Positions 1,165 to 29,439 of a DNA stretch of 64,000 nt are shown one piece after another. Made by a program: the position numbers and the translations under genes. The stretch is from Fimbriimonadaceae bacterium (lineage in GTDB: Bacteria; Armatimonadota; Fimbriimonadia; Fimbriimonadales; Fimbriimonadaceae). The notes beneath the pieces were generated by a model that was not told the DNA's origin, ran no database searches, and saw only the letters and a program-made list of their open reading frames with translations. Within the stretch, counting starts at the first letter, position 1, and each line of letters starts with the position of its first letter. The stretch is from the NCBI GenBank assembly GCA_019638675.1, contig JAHBTE010000001.1, positions 2,512,605-2,576,604 of the forward strand. The letters run 5' to 3'.

Positions 1165-3600
1165 TTAAAACGCTCGACTGAAGAAAATTGCGTTCAACCA
1201 GAGTCTACGCTGGGCGGACATAAACCCGCGGAACACGGGATTGTCTGCCATCAAAACAACTCGACCACCGCCCATTCTTTTTGCAAGAACTGCGGCAGAA
1301 CCCCGAGAAGTCTCTAAGACCTTTGGGGAAACGTAGCCCGCTAAGAGCGGAGAATCTGTATAACGAGAGACGGTCACCCCTGCTTCTTTCGGAACAACCC
1401 AGAAACTTCCGCTCTCTCTAAAACTTGATGTCCGATCACATCCAAATGTTAATGGGTGAGTATCATCTAAGACTGTTTCAAAGATCGTGCCCGGAACCGT
1501 ATGCTCGCCTCTCGCGGCCTCCAGTTCTCCGTAAGATAGTCCTTCAAAATCAGATCGAACGCTCTTGGAATCAAGCTTCCAAATCGTTGTTCCGGCAACC
1601 CACTCTGCTCCGCCAGCCGTGGCGACCAGAGTTCCACCGCCTGAAACCCACGCGGAAAGTGTTTCGGCAAATGGTGCTGGATAGCGGCCCCCTGCCAAAA
1701 GCACAACGTTGTAGTTAGCCAAAACGGATTGCGTCGCACTAGAAGCATCAATCACCGAGACTTCCATACTATGCTCGTGGTCGAGTTCCCACCACTGCTC
1801 TCCTGTGTTGTTGCTATCGGTGCCCGATCCGGCGATCAGTGCGATCTTCGGTTGCTCAACCAATGTCAACTGGTTGCCGCCCCAACTCACTATTTCTCCC
1901 GTTTGACCACCGACCATTTCTACCGAATCACCTCTTCCGCGAAGGGCTTTGTTCAGCACTAAGTTTTCGTTTTCTATCAGTACAAATACATCCCCTGGCC
2001 GAGCATTACCAAGTGCCGACTTCACAAAATAATGTCTTCCATCCGGCATCGTGTAATTCACGAGCTCGTGAAAGTTCGGGCTTTCTTTGCGAATGATGTA
2101 GCCGATTGGTTTATCCGCTTTAATCAGCGAATCCTTTTTGGCAAAGTCCGATTCTTGAAGTTCTCTGGCTCCGCTGATTTCTCCCCGTCCTTCCGTTACC
2201 GTTGCTTCAGTTGTATACATTAGCGACCATGCACTGATATCGTAAAACTGAGTGTCTTCAAACGTGGTTCTCGGCTCGAACATCGCTTTTACAAGGGTTC
2301 CAAAGCGTTGACTGACCGGAACTATAAAATCACCGTTCAGAACCATTACTTTGACCTGGTGAGCCAAAACGTTATTGACCAACTTCATTCCTGCCGAATC
2401 TCTTTTGATTCGGTAGTAAGTCACTCCATTGGTAGGCAAAACAGGTGTACGGAAAAAGTCTCGCTGATGCTTGAGCAACTTCACGCGCATATCTTGCCCG
2501 GCCTGCAACGAACTTAAGCAAGTTGCGAATTGGTTCCGGACCGTTGCTTCGTAATGTACAAACTCCTCGCCCTTGCGGATCAATCCCCGAGTAGAGCCTT
2601 GCTCGAACAAGATTCCAATCGAACCAATTACGTCGGGGTAGGTCGAGCCCTTACCAATGTAGAAATCGTCGTACCGCTGCTCTGTGAAATATCGTTGGCC
2701 AATTCGTTCCAAAGCCTTAGCATGGTAGCGAGCGATTTCCTTGGTAAGTTCTTGATTTGACTTAGGAGTCAACGGATTAACGCGGCTCTGTACACCAGGT
2801 TGGAAGAAATAGCTTTCCCCGCCCATTTCGTGGTAATCCAAGATGAGTTGCGGACGTGCAGCCCTGAGAAGTTCATGCCGACCCTGACTTTCTGGTTGAG
2901 TTAGAGGGAACCAGTCGCGGTTCAAATCAAACCAATAGTGGTTTGTTCGTCCACCGGGCCAAGGCTGATTGTGCTCCCGGTCGGCGTTTTCAAAAGTAGC
3001 AATCGCACCGCGGTTTCCATTTACCCAGCTTACAAAGCGGTCGCGACCATCGGGATTGTAGTTTGGAAACAAGAAGATCACTGTGTTATCCAGGGTCTTC
3101 TTCATTTCCGCAGATTCATCTGCAGCCAGGTGATATAAAAAAGCAAGTGCCGCTTCGGGGCCGCTGGCTTCGTCGCCATGAACTCCATGCCCGCTCCAAT
3201 AAATTAGTGGCATTTTCGCCAGTTCAGCATCGGAAACTGTCTCGGGTTCATTCATAAGTCTGCGATTCTGTTCAATAATCCGATTGAAGTTCTTGTGATT
3301 TTCTGGCGAAGTCACAACTGCGTAGATCAGCTCGCGCCCTTCATGAGTTCGTCCATAACTCCGTACAACCACACGGTCGCTCACCGCCGCAACCGATCTA
3401 AAGTAGTCATTGATCTCCCAGCTATAGGTGTGCCGACTTCCAAGAACGAATCCGGAAGTTTTCACAGGGGTCGGAATCTTGTTGGAATACTTGGAATCAG
3501 TTACCTGCCAAATGCCATAAGGAAGTTGTGCCCAAGTTGCCCCTATTGCCATTAAGCCTACTACAACCGAAATTGAACGAAGAATCCCTGCGCGACGCAT
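1165..3600 (-). CDS. Secreted M14 zinc carboxypeptidase with C-terminal amidotransferase-like domain
   Basis: 811 residues with a signal peptide (1-24, ending ATWAQ). The peptidase M14 fold is shown by the zinc motif HGDE (His141, Glu144), NPDGRDRF near 182, FDLNRDW near 225, DYHEMG with the likely third ligand His257, and FEQGST with the probable catalytic Glu333. From about residue 590 a second region (IALIAGSGTD, later VVLLAGGRYP and GGGTLVATAGG) resembles the flavodoxin or class I amidotransferase-like domain often found behind M14 domains. It would cut peptides outside the cytoplasm; the substrate is unknown. It appears monocistronic, divergent from the membrane-protein pair at 3658. Confidence 0.9.
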   Translation of the reverse strand: MRRAGILRSISVVVGLMAIGATWAQLPYGIWQVTDSKYSNKIPTPVKTSGFVLGSRHTYSWEINDYFRSVAAVSDRVVVRSYGRTHEGRELIYAVVTSPENHKNFNRIIEQNRRLMNEPETVSDAELAKMPLIYWSGHGVHGDEASGPEAALAFLYHLAADESAEMKKTLDNTVIFLFPNYNPDGRDRFVSWVNGNRGAIATFENADREHNQPWPGGRTNHYWFDLNRDWFPLTQPESQGRHELLRAARPQLILDYHEMGGESYFFQPGVQSRVNPLTPKSNQELTKEIARYHAKALERIGQRYFTEQRYDDFYIGKGSTYPDVIGSIGILFEQGSTRGLIRKGEEFVHYEATVRNQFATCLSSLQAGQDMRVKLLKHQRDFFRTPVLPTNGVTYYRIKRDSAGMKLVNNVLAHQVKVMVLNGDFIVPVSQRFGTLVKAMFEPRTTFEDTQFYDISAWSLMYTTEATVTEGRGEISGARELQESDFAKKDSLIKADKPIGYIIRKESPNFHELVNYTMPDGRHYFVKSALGNARPGDVFVLIENENLVLNKALRGRGDSVEMVGGQTGEIVSWGGNQLTLVEQPKIALIAGSGTDSNNTGEQWWELDHEHSMEVSVIDASSATQSVLANYNVVLLAGGRYPAPFAETLSAWVSGGGTLVATAGGAEWVAGTTIWKLDSKSVRSDFEGLSYGELEAARGEHTVPGTIFETVLDDTHPLTFGCDRTSSFRESGSFWVVPKEAGVTVSRYTDSPLLAGYVSPKVLETSRGSAAVLAKRMGGGRVVLMADNPVFRGFMSAQRRLWLNAIFFSRAF

Positions 3601-26861: not shown

Positions 26862-26978
26862 GGTTGGTTGTTAATATGGGAACGGTCCCGGGTTTAACCG
26901 AGGCTTCAAATTTGCCATTCAGATTGAACCTGATCCCACAGGATCGTTGAATTTCCTTGAACAGGATTGGATGAAAAA

Positions 26979-27788
26979 ATGAAAAAACTCGCTTTCGCAA
27001 CCCTCACACTTGGTTTAGTTGCAATTTCTGCTTCTGCTCAAGCCGTGTACTTCTACACAGGCTCGCCGATCAACGAAAACTTTGACTCACTGCCAACATC
27101 TGGAACGAGCACCGGATTGTTCACAGTGGGAACACAAACGGCTATCCCCGGAACCACTGGTTTCGTCGGCACCCGAGTAGGTGGCAGCGGTAGCGCAATG
27201 AACTTTGCTGCAAACGACGGCGGTAGCAACTCTGGTGCAATGTACAGTTATGGATCGGGTACAGATTCAGATCGTGCACTGGGCATGCTCGCATCCGGTT
27301 CTAACTGGGGTGCATTCGGTTTTGAACTCGTCAACAATTCCGGATCAGCTCTGACTTCTGTTTCCCTACGATTCACCGCCGAATTCTGGCGATCCAGCAC
27401 CTCCGTGCAAAACGTACTTGCGGCAACCGTAGGCGTTTCCGGCGGATCTGCTAACTCTTCCAACTTCCTCACCGATGGTTCAATGGTCGCGTTCTCTGCT
27501 TTCGACATCGTTGGCCCAGCGCCAGTTGCTTCAAACGGAGCACTTGATGGCAACCTCGCAGCTAACCAAGCTTCGGTAATCGGAACCTTCACGTTCAATA
27601 CACCGCTTGCAAATGGAGATAGCTTCTTTGTTAGCTGGAATGACGTCAACGATGCTGGTAACGATGCTGGCCTCGCAATTGATAACCTCACAATTACGGC
27701 AACAACTGACGCAGTTCCTGAACCAGCAACCATGGCAGTCCTTGCAGCGGCTGGCCTTGCTGCAGCTGCACGACGCAAGCGCAAGTAA
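26979..27788 (+). CDS. PEP-CTERM secreted protein, paralogue 1
   Basis: 269 residues from the ATG at 26979 (an in-frame ATG at 26967 would add four residues). Signal peptide LAFATLTLGLVAISASAQA, then a body with PINENFDSLPTSGT, SALTSVSLRFTAEFWRSS and FVSWNDVNDAGNDAGLAIDN, and sorting tail VPEPATMAVLAAAGLAAAA plus RRKRK. It is closely similar along its length to the gene at 28624; the DUF559 element lies between them. Function unknown, probably a surface or matrix protein. Confidence 0.9.
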   Translation: MKKLAFATLTLGLVAISASAQAVYFYTGSPINENFDSLPTSGTSTGLFTVGTQTAIPGTTGFVGTRVGGSGSAMNFAANDGGSNSGAMYSYGSGTDSDRALGMLASGSNWGAFGFELVNNSGSALTSVSLRFTAEFWRSSTSVQNVLAATVGVSGGSANSSNFLTDGSMVAFSAFDIVGPAPVASNGALDGNLAANQASVIGTFTFNTPLANGDSFFVSWNDVNDAGNDAGLAIDNLTITATTDAVPEPATMAVLAAAGLAAAARRKRK

Positions 27789-27865
27789 GCGTTTTGGGTT
27801 GGTCGGGCGCAACGAGTACCACCCAAGAATCAAGATTCTCCCTAGAATTGGGAAGAATCAACTTA

Positions 27866-27909
27866 ACTCCCTCCCCGAAGATCGGGGAGGGATAAAGGGA
27901 GGGGTTGAT
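27866..27909 (+). repeat. G/C-rich palindromic repeat, copy 1 (left inverted arm)
   Basis: The unit contains the hairpin CTCCCCGAAGATCGGGGAG followed by GGATAAAGGGAGGGGTTGAT. Positions 27868-27909 are an exact 42-bp inverted repeat of 28292-28333, and the two arms bracket the DUF559 gene. Confidence 0.9.
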
Positions 27910-27941
27910 ATTTTGACTTTCGCATTGCTTAAAATATTCTT

Positions 27942-28292
27942 GTGAAACGCTTCGCAACTAGCCAAGCAAAAACTTTCAGTAAACAAAATCGCAAAAATCT
28001 TACAACGGTAGAAGCTGCCTTGTGGAGTCGCCTTCGCGTACTAAGGTCAGAAAATCTAGTATTCAGACGCCAGCATCCAGTTGGGCTATACATTGCAGAC
28101 TTTGCTCATCTCCAGTCAAAAACTGTTATTGAACTGATTGGAAAGAGCCACGCTGAATCTGGTCAATCAGACTTGACTCGGGAGCAATTTTTCTGTGACC
28201 AAGGATGGCAAATTCTGTATTTCGACAATCTAGATGTTATCAGGCAAATTGATTGGGTTGTGGAGCGGATAGTAGAAGCGGTGCATCGGTGA
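27942..28292 (+). CDS. DUF559 (Vsr-like) endonuclease-domain protein
   Basis: 116 residues from a GTG start 33 bp after repeat copy 1. LTTVEAALWSRLRVLRSENL, FRRQHPVGLYIADFAHLQ, TVIELIGKSHAES and QGWQILYFDNLDV follow the DUF559 family, a small restriction-endonuclease-like fold related to very-short-patch-repair nucleases. The usual VIELDG motif reads VIELIG, so one acidic residue of the presumed active site is replaced. The TGA stop (28290-28292) overlaps the first base of the right inverted repeat, so the gene and its repeats look like one unit of about 470 bp. Confidence 0.85.
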   Translation: MKRFATSQAKTFSKQNRKNLTTVEAALWSRLRVLRSENLVFRRQHPVGLYIADFAHLQSKTVIELIGKSHAESGQSDLTREQFFCDQGWQILYFDNLDVIRQIDWVVERIVEAVHR

Positions 28293-28335
28293 TCAACCCC
28301 TCCCTTTATCCCTCCCCGATCTTCGGGGAGGGAAT
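28291..28335 (-). repeat. G/C-rich palindromic repeat, copy 2 (right inverted arm)
   Basis: Positions 28292-28333 are the exact reverse complement of 27868-27909 over 42 bp. It begins at the stop codon of the DUF559 gene and contains the same CTCCCCGATCTTCGGGGAG hairpin. Confidence 0.9.
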
Positions 28336-28421
28336 CCCGGAATGCAAGTTGCCCAACAAGTTGAGCTAACTCTACATAACTCGCTAAACGAAAGTCTGTA
28401 CTTCTAAAAAATCTCACAAAG

Positions 28422-28465
28422 AACTCCCTCCCCGAAGATCGGGGAGGGCAGGGAGGGGTTGATCA
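28422..28465 (+). repeat. G/C-rich palindromic repeat, copy 3
   Basis: Same orientation as copy 1. It shares AACTCCCTCCCCGAAGATCG and GGGAGGGGTTGAT but has CA in place of the ATAAA that joins the two halves. It lies 86 bp beyond copy 2, in the gap before the second PEP-CTERM paralogue. Confidence 0.88.
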
Positions 28466-28623
28466 GGCAAAGTTCAGACTGAGCATAATGGCACTCTTCA
28501 TTACTCGCAAAAGTACTGGATTAGCTATGCCGTGACTAGGCTTTAACATTTTCTTAAGATAAGATATCCAAATTCGTCTTCGGCCTGAGTTTTGGCCGCA
28601 GGATTTCTTTCAGGATTGGAAAA

Positions 28624-29439
28624 ATGAAAAAGATTGCTTTTGCAACCCTCACACTTGGTTTGGTCGCTTTCTCAGCCACTGCAAGCGCTTCATACAGCTT
28701 CACTGGTGCTACGATCAACGAAGACTTTGATTCGCTGCCATCAAGCGGCACCTTCAGTTCAATTTTCGGGCCTGGTTCAGCTCAAGCTGCAGTCCCTGGT
28801 GGTACTCAGTTTGTCGGTGCTCGAGTTGGGGGTAGCAGTGGATCAGCAATGAATTTTGTCATCAATGATGGTTTAGGCAACTCTGGGGCCCTTTACAGTT
28901 ACGGAACTGGTAGTTCTTCAGATAGAGCATTGGGGTCACTAGCTTCTGCAACCCATATTCCTGGTTTCGGTTTTGAAATGGTTAATAACTCTGGAGCGGC
29001 AATTACTTCGGTGACTCTACGATTTACCGCAGAATTTTGGCGATCAAGTACATTAGCAACTAACACACTGAGTGCGTTTTACGGCGTTTCTGGTGGCGCA
29101 ATCAATGCAAGCAACTTTATCACCGAAGCATCCATGACCGCAATCACTAGTTGGGATGTAGTAGGGCCAGCATTTGTAGCAAGCAATGGTGCTCTGGACG
29201 GGAACGACCCTCTTAACCAAGCAACTGTTTTCGCAACATTGACTTTGAGCACTCCACTTGCGAATGGTGGCAGTTTCTTCGTCGCATGGAGAGATTTCAA
29301 CGACGTTGGAAACGACGCTGGTCTTGCTATCGACAACCTTGCTATTTCAGCAACCACCGATGCTGTTCCAGAACCAGCTACCATGGCAGTTCTCGCTGCG
29401 GCTGGTCTTGCAGCTGCCGCTCGACGAAAGCGCAAATAA
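28624..29439 (+). CDS. PEP-CTERM secreted protein, paralogue 2
   Basis: 271 residues. Signal peptide IAFATLTLGLVAFSATASA; body with INEDFDSLPSSGTFSSIFG, SVTLRFTAEFWRSS and DFNDVGNDAGLAIDNLAIS; tail VPEPATMAVLAAAGLAAAA and RRKRK. A close homologue of the gene at 26979, down to the leader (both have GGATTGGA shortly before the start), so a tandem duplication now split by the DUF559 repeat element. Terminator 29453-29500 follows. Confidence 0.9.
   Translation: MKKIAFATLTLGLVAFSATASASYSFTGATINEDFDSLPSSGTFSSIFGPGSAQAAVPGGTQFVGARVGGSSGSAMNFVINDGLGNSGALYSYGTGSSSDRALGSLASATHIPGFGFEMVNNSGAAITSVTLRFTAEFWRSSTLATNTLSAFYGVSGGAINASNFITEASMTAITSWDVVGPAFVASNGALDGNDPLNQATVFATLTLSTPLANGGSFFVAWRDFNDVGNDAGLAIDNLAISATTDAVPEPATMAVLAAAGLAAAARRKRK

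Follow-up and report, generated by a model that had tools for sequence, protein, structure and literature searches.

Inward-facing triplex motifs frame DUF559 nuclease genes across bacterial phyla: a candidate enzyme for the BoxC/PIT/TM repeats

Genes of the DUF559 family are framed by inward-facing class II triplex motifs (TMs), and this framing is general across bacterial phyla. The case described here lies in a 64,000-nucleotide stretch of DNA from a Fimbriimonadaceae bacterium, hereafter the window, in which a DUF559 gene stands between two such motifs. We propose that this 470-bp unit is probably an autonomous copy of a repeat system, with the DUF559 nuclease as the enzyme that spreads or keeps the TMs; both the catalysis and the transposition are what we infer. 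The elements of the locus are the following.

27868..27909, + strand: left triplex-motif repeat (inverted-repeat search, sequence, ssDNA fold); Y arm CCCTCCCC at 27869-27876, loop GAAGATC, R arm GGGGAGGG at 27884-27891, loop ATAAA, mirror tail GGGAGGGG at 27897-27904, then TTGAT; the tail faces into the DUF559 gene
27942..28292, + strand: DUF559 PD-(D/E)XK (Vsr-like) nuclease gene; GTG start, 116 aa; PF04480 profile match
28292..28333, - strand: right triplex-motif repeat, a perfect inverted copy of the left repeat; the tail faces into the gene
28425..28465, + strand: third triplex-motif repeat; hairpin 28425-28448, loop CA, tail GGGAGGGG at 28451-28458

The initial annotation had described the gene as boxed by a perfect 42-bp inverted repeat, and a repeat search of the window bears this out: the two 42-nt arms, 27868-27909 and 28292-28333, are inverted copies with 100% complementarity, 382 nt apart. 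The left arm is separated from the start codon by 32 bases, and the stop codon TGA (28290-28292) was correctly said to overlap the right copy, with which it has one base in common. The third repeat lies 91 bp beyond the boxed unit; thus, the right repeat is also part of a divergent pair. The core word CCCTCCCCG occurs six times in the window, against 0.32 expected, and none of 100 shuffles reaches six. Each window repeat is made up of a C-rich hairpin followed by a mirror-image G-rich tail, with ATAAA or CA as the loop between the two. In the full layout, CCCTCCCC-GAAGATC-GGGGAGGG-ATAAA-GGGAGGGG, the tail mirrors the purine arm exactly. When the window repeats are folded as single-stranded DNA, the stability of their hairpins is well beyond that of shuffled sequences (z about -3.3 to -3.8); the left one has -13.3 kcal/mol and a z of -3.8.

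Read from its letters, the window repeat is a class II intrastrand triplex motif, the element called TM, BoxC in E. coli, and PIT. It follows the class II grammar without a mismatch, as CCCTCCCC-N7-GGGGAGGG-N5-GGGAGGGG. It shares with BoxC/PIT/TM-ECO the order pyrimidine arm, purine arm, mirror tail, as well as the intergenic location, the occurrence in inverted pairs, and the large differences in number between close strains. However, the TM-ECO consensus, CCCTCNCCCN3-6GGGNGAGGGN3GGGNGAGGG, does not fit, as the window arms are of 8 nt and the loops of 7 and 5 nt. By this comparison of sequences, the window repeat is a variant of the TM class and not TM-ECO itself. BoxC has been known in E. 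coli since the 1990s and has also been named the PIT element (PMC4666352). TMs are common in more than 260 genomes and differ strongly in number between close strains; the E. coli motif, the only one with in vitro evidence, folds as a triplex in vitro (PMC4666352). Holder et al. (2015) never found mobility genes beside TMs, and DUF559, ycjD, and nucleases of any kind go unmentioned in their paper, from which the words “endonuclease”, “DUF” and “nuclease” are absent (PMC4666352). The open-access literature on DUF559, COG2852/PF04480, ycjD, and REP-nuclease links yielded no DUF559-TM association.

The assignment of the gene to DUF559, made initially from the letters of the window, holds: the protein matches PF04480 with 89.9 bits (curated cut-off 20.6; E 1.2e-25). 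Its nearest solved structures are 3hrl, an endonuclease-like protein (E 1.7e-33), and 3r3p, a mobile intron protein (E 0.0025), the latter a distant match that spans the catalytic core. We take 3r3p to be I-Bth0305I, an EDxHD-type homing endonuclease. Like DUF559, I-Bth0305I is a nuclease that is small, free-standing, and associated with a mobile element; in contrast, it is intron-borne and has a defined target, whereas in the case of DUF559 there is no intron, and the putative target repeats stand on both sides of the gene. DUF559 is a member of the PD-(D/E)XK/Vsr superfamily, and YcjD, the E. coli member, was grouped with Vsr in 2005 (PMC1189080). YcjD and 3hrl are of the same protein family as the window protein. 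Elsewhere, DUF559/PF04480 proteins are annotated as “function unknown” or “very short patch repair”, and the literature covered gave no link to repeats. A role in anti-phage defense was considered and set aside: PADLOC gave no match for the window protein, and the only matches that two further DUF559 proteins from this genome gave were short, partial, and inside large defense proteins.

The catalytic core of the window protein, D...E-x-D-G-x-x-H, is incomplete. In the alignment, the equivalents of D54, E65, and H71 are kept and D67 is replaced by Ile; the remaining three DUF559 genes of this genome have an intact core. Since the D of the E-x-D-G motif is missing, the window copy's own catalysis is doubtful. 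The orthologue in the congener G060 (G060:C1:182793-183113) has the same Ile. Between these two genes dS is about 1.0, dN is 0.06, and dN/dS is 0.059; therefore, the window protein is under purifying selection, despite the Ile in both copies. Perhaps the window copy is catalytically altered, or is a binding-only protein, kept by selection.

In the 2.85-Mb genome, palindromes of the form CCCTCCCC...GGGGAGGG number 34, and the reversed control is absent. Convergent repeats of the hairpin-plus-tail kind stand on both sides of each of its four DUF559 genes. At the window gene and at that of locus L021 the box is simple, and the right repeat overlaps the stop codon in each case. The gene of locus L020 lies within an array of two-hairpin elements of about 100 bp (L020:1180-2030), each laid out as CCCTCCCC..GGGGAGGG-AGGGCGGGGTTGA ... 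CCACCTCTT-CTCCTCCC..GGGAGGAG, and the gene of locus L023 has another type of repeat, CCCCTCTCC-...-GGAGAGGGG-TTGGGGTGAGG. The three DUF559 proteins with the CCCTCCCC repeat are 35-51% identical to one another and 30-33% identical to that of L023. Co-variation of protein and repeat within the genome is positive and modest (rho 0.46, p 0.0025; the pairs are not independent).

In congener G060 the gene and all three repeats are found at the corresponding position, with a DNA identity of about 82-83%; there the loops of the hairpins have changed in a coordinated way, GAAGATC having become GAACTTC or its complement. A sister genome inspected for the gene without its repeats thus proved to keep both. 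The 470-bp unit is located between two tandem PEP-CTERM paralogues (window 26967-29439), as had been noticed; that it looked inserted stands as a description of its position, and not as a recent event, since the same arrangement at a divergence of dS about 1.0 implies that the insertion of the window unit is old. In congener G061, the interval between the neighboring genes is about 0.6 kb, versus 3.5 kb here (from match coordinates), a difference that suggests the absence of the PEP-CTERM genes and of DUF559 from that interval. At the L020 locus, comparison with G060 shows the array and the DUF559 gene absent at the aligned left junction, which is clean; the right flank could not be aligned. 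Single TMs, too, can be gained or lost: G060 has one at a position where there is no TM in this genome.

Whether in this genome, in the family, or across phyla, the repeats cluster strongly at DUF559 genes, as the idea of an associated module had anticipated. PF04480 is patchy in the family, being found in 40 of its 61 genomes. We scored the best inverted repeat between the 300 bp upstream and the 300 bp downstream of each gene. Among 64 family loci (60 fetched DUF559 loci and the four of this genome), 75% scored at least 13, compared with 0.5% of 366 control windows taken from those regions; for a score of at least 18, the figures were 53% and none. A scan of species genomes, queried with four DUF559 sequences, gave 80 loci from about 20 phyla, and the proportions were nearly those of the family: 74% versus 1.5% of 594 controls at a score of at least 13, and 52.5% versus none at 18 or more. 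Counting hairpins directly, 111 of 143 DUF559 genes (78%, about 20 phyla) have one on both sides within 350 bp, as against 19 of 1088 random windows (1.7%); eleven of the 143 have none on either side. The tail of the nearest hairpin points inward rather than outward in 83 versus 26 cases upstream and in 79 versus 23 downstream. The stop codon is within a TM in 53 of the 108 genes that have a downstream motif and at most 15 bp away in 20 more. The letters of the repeats vary between taxa and the grammar is common, as in CCCCTCTCCC-GGGAGAGGGG-TTGGGGTGAGGG of Rhodanobacter, Lysobacter, and Stenotrophomonas.

At loci L175, L180, L193, and L200, from several Chloroflexi and from Gastranaerophilales, the third strand lies outside the hairpins, reversed with respect to most taxa and consistent within the group. 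A Neisseria gonorrhoeae record (L207) contains a DUF559 gene with TMs on both sides.

TM copy number depends on the presence of DUF559 in two unrelated bacterial families. For the 61 genomes of the window's family, the TM count, taken as matches to a generic hairpin pattern minus those of its reversed control, has a median of 25 with DUF559 (n=37) and of 1 without it (n=24; p 3.7e-7, Spearman 0.72, with genomes treated as independent, as also in the Lysobacter-family and Y1_Tnp tests below, the within-genus contrasts excepted). Six of the seven within-genus contrasts agree. The Lysobacter family (that of L177 and G066, 79 genomes) replicates the result: the CCCCTCTCCC-N-GGGAGAGGGG palindrome has a median of 9.5 with DUF559 (maximum 145) and of 0 without it (maximum 7), p 1.1e-9, and the reversed control is zero in all genomes. 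A few DUF559-less genomes have 13-20 TMs.

Elements without a gene, and with the same two inward-facing ends, also exist, and they are present or absent at fixed sites. Genome G100 has gene-less convergent TM pairs about 100 bp long, along with further pairs about 125 bp apart, and the ends of the gene-less pairs match those of DUF559-bearing units. In MG1655, four of the five inverted TM pairs (1+2, 7+8, 10+11, and 12+13) are convergent elements of 85-100 bp. The pair between hrpB and mrcB is missing in IHE3034 and 254D-1 (771 versus 669 bp), and that between fepB and entC is missing in CFT073 (901 versus 715). Elsewhere a pair has collapsed to one hairpin, in O111:H11 at hrpB-mrcB and in FDAARGOS_1268 at alx-sstT. 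The junctions of these presence/absence alleles show replaced bases and no clear target-site duplication. The E. coli units have common outer flanks, GTTTTCT on the left (two sites) and GAC(C/T)GA(C/T)CGAG on the right, with a similar form beside ycjD; therefore, the E. coli unit reaches slightly past the hairpins. A TM motif is also found on the record of a 155-kb E. coli plasmid (NZ_CP074792.1:1627-1664).

The DUF559 gene of E. coli is ycjD, whose 3′ end runs into a TM, with further TMs within about 250 bp beyond it. The TM beside ycjD is, as matched by sequence, motif no. 9 of Holder. The ycjD region is found in about 3,330-3,360 of 5,426 E. coli genomes; according to a 2026 paper, phylogroups A, B1, and C conserve ycjD, and outside them its position is taken by eefRABCD (PMC12817139). 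Counted with a combined ycjD+TM query in 60 evenly sampled genomes, TM places have a median of 18 (11-26) with ycjD and of 4 (1-19) without it (p 1.4e-9), a contrast confounded with phylogroup. About 12 TMs are retained in O157:H7 E. coli, which lacks ycjD. The sapF-fabI interval (L248-L263) has two alternative contents: in one, ycjD is accompanied by three TM elements; the other is the efflux operon eefRABCD. The junctions of this interval are not simple. As it carries eefRABCD, the ycjD-less allele was rejected as a simple empty site. None of the places compared offered a clean empty site for a unit with DUF559, the window locus being occupied in G060, L020 being readable on its left side only, and E. 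coli being as just described. The search for empty sites thus succeeded for the gene-less repeat pairs of E. coli and failed for the 470-bp unit.

In the Lysobacter family, the DUF559 unit occupies a common position at five loci (L274, L278, L279, L281, and L282), where it is flanked by an hppD-like and an hmgA-like gene and has same-type repeats on each side, and at three others (L273, L275, and L283) it lies beside a prpF-like gene; these gene names were given by eye to translated flanks. The common position in several species argues for vertical inheritance of the DUF559 gene, as for RAYTs.

It is tempting to propose a mechanism. DUF559, a small PD-(D/E)XK protein of the Vsr and homing-endonuclease kind, would recognize the hairpin and its tail in their folded form, be it single-stranded or triplex DNA, wherever this is exposed (replication forks being one example), and would nick it. 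The nick could seed copying, or excision and insertion, of TM pairs and single TMs via host repair; host repair or replication would then copy, move, or delete TM units. The gene itself would be mostly stationary and vertically passed, in the manner of a RAYT, and the short gene-less TM pairs would be the multiplying, REPIN-like population.

What else might account for these data? If TMs were terminators or spacers that gather around any small non-essential gene in non-coding stretches, the framing would be a coincidence of intergenic DNA. TMs are intergenic, and the one hundred CCCTCTCCC...GGGAGAGGG palindromes of Enterobacter sp. 638 were once presumed to be terminators (PMC2869309). However, TMs have neither promoter nor terminator activity, the terminator result for PIT elements being earlier work cited in the same paper (PMC4666352), and TM number tracks DUF559 across genomes. 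Among small ORFs flanked on both sides by 80 bp or more of intergenic DNA, moreover, hairpins occur on both sides in 6 of 107 (5.6%), against 78% for DUF559 genes (odds ratio 58). Rejected both by the random windows and by these intergenic-flanked ORFs, simple coincidence is already largely refuted, and we regard it as extremely improbable. A different suspicion is that something else moves the repeats, be it a RAYT, another IS200/IS605 protein, or host slippage, with DUF559 as a passenger, or else as a housekeeping enzyme whose task in TM-rich genomes is to clear away triplex obstacles. Y1_Tnp (PF01797) proteins occur in 33 of the 61 family genomes, and the profile search found two in this genome, both beyond the window; the E. 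coli loss alleles resemble slippage between hairpin arms; and the purifying selection on the DUF559 gene fits a cellular role. Yet in the same 61 genomes the partial correlation with TM number is 0.65 for DUF559 given Y1_Tnp (p 1.4e-8) and 0.11 for Y1_Tnp given DUF559 (p 0.40), and genomes with DUF559 and no Y1_Tnp have a median of 25.5 TMs (n=10), compared with 2 for those with Y1_Tnp and no DUF559 (n=6). We therefore reject RAYT as the explanation of TM number, as it has no effect once DUF559 is counted. A housekeeping role, for its part, has no need of the physical boxing by the repeat seen in 78% of cases. Another mover is, in our judgment, unlikely.

The remaining possibility is that of a homing endonuclease. 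DUF559 would make double-strand cuts at TM sites, and repair from the DUF559-bearing allele, with the flanking TMs as homology, would copy the gene in; TMs would then be targets of the enzyme and not its offspring. This is in keeping with the mobile intron endonuclease 3r3p being among the nearest characterized fold relatives, and a gene inside TMs on both sides, its stop codon often within one, has the look of a gene dropped into its target. However, homing predicts that TMs are independent of DUF559, and DUF559-less genomes have almost none; nor does homing alone account for gene-less pairs, about 100 bp long, whose ends are the same and likewise face inward. We give homing a small probability, much like that of another mover. 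The suggestion with which the work began, a repeat-maintaining module that resembles RAYT/REP and has a restriction-fold nuclease in its place, gains support, inasmuch as repeat number follows DUF559 and not RAYT; its enzymology is what we infer.

On the wider proposal our opinion is evenly divided: that DUF559, a stand-alone PD-(D/E)XK family, recognizes intrastrand-triplex hairpins and is the dedicated mobilizer of BoxC/PIT/TM, which rank among the most common orphan repeats of bacteria, in a RAYT-REPIN-like symbiosis of independent origin, based on an unrelated enzyme, spread over about 20 phyla, and represented in K-12 by ycjD. BoxC/PIT/TM elements occur in hundreds of genomes and have been linked to genome instability, and published work came upon neither a mobility gene nor a function for them. 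Orphans since the 1990s, these repeats may at last be paired with their enzyme. If DUF559 is indeed the TM enzyme, a large nuclease family of “unknown function” would have its function named, the jumps in TM number between close strains would be explained, and the question would be testable in E. coli K-12 through ycjD. There would also be a second, unrelated type of enzyme behind REPIN-like repeat populations, and possibly the first bacterial enzyme known to act on intrastrand triplex DNA.

The comparison with known systems is instructive. Autonomous units accompanied by shorter gene-less units with the same ends are typical of MITEs and of IS elements with terminal inverted repeats, and the present units share with such transposons both the terminal inverted repeats and the presence or absence at orthologous sites, the latter for the gene-less pairs only (hrpB-mrcB, fepB-entC). 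In contrast to MITEs and IS elements, the unit has no DDE, HUH, or recombinase gene, its ends are hairpins, and no target-site duplication has been established. The likeness to REP/REPIN-RAYT systems goes further. In both, the repeats are short, palindromic, and intergenic, with inverted pairs of about 100 bp; the enzyme is encoded by one or a few repeat-flanked genes, apparently vertically kept and outnumbered by the repeats; and, by analogy, repeat number depends on the enzyme gene, that of TMs depending on DUF559 and being independent of Y1_Tnp. The gene-less inverted pairs of about 100 bp with the ends of the enzyme unit (G100; 85-100 bp in MG1655) resemble REPINs. Nevertheless, DUF559 is a PD-(D/E)XK/Vsr-like nuclease and not an HUH Y1 transposase, the TM has a mirror-image G-rich tail, and the GTAG/CGTC foot borders no window hairpin. 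The two kinds of repeat system may interact locally at one place in this genome, G000:C1:1866021-1873575 (L014-L016), where a Y1_Tnp (RAYT-like) gene (G000:C1 1868818-1869189) has three TM palindromes within 3-5 kb of it.
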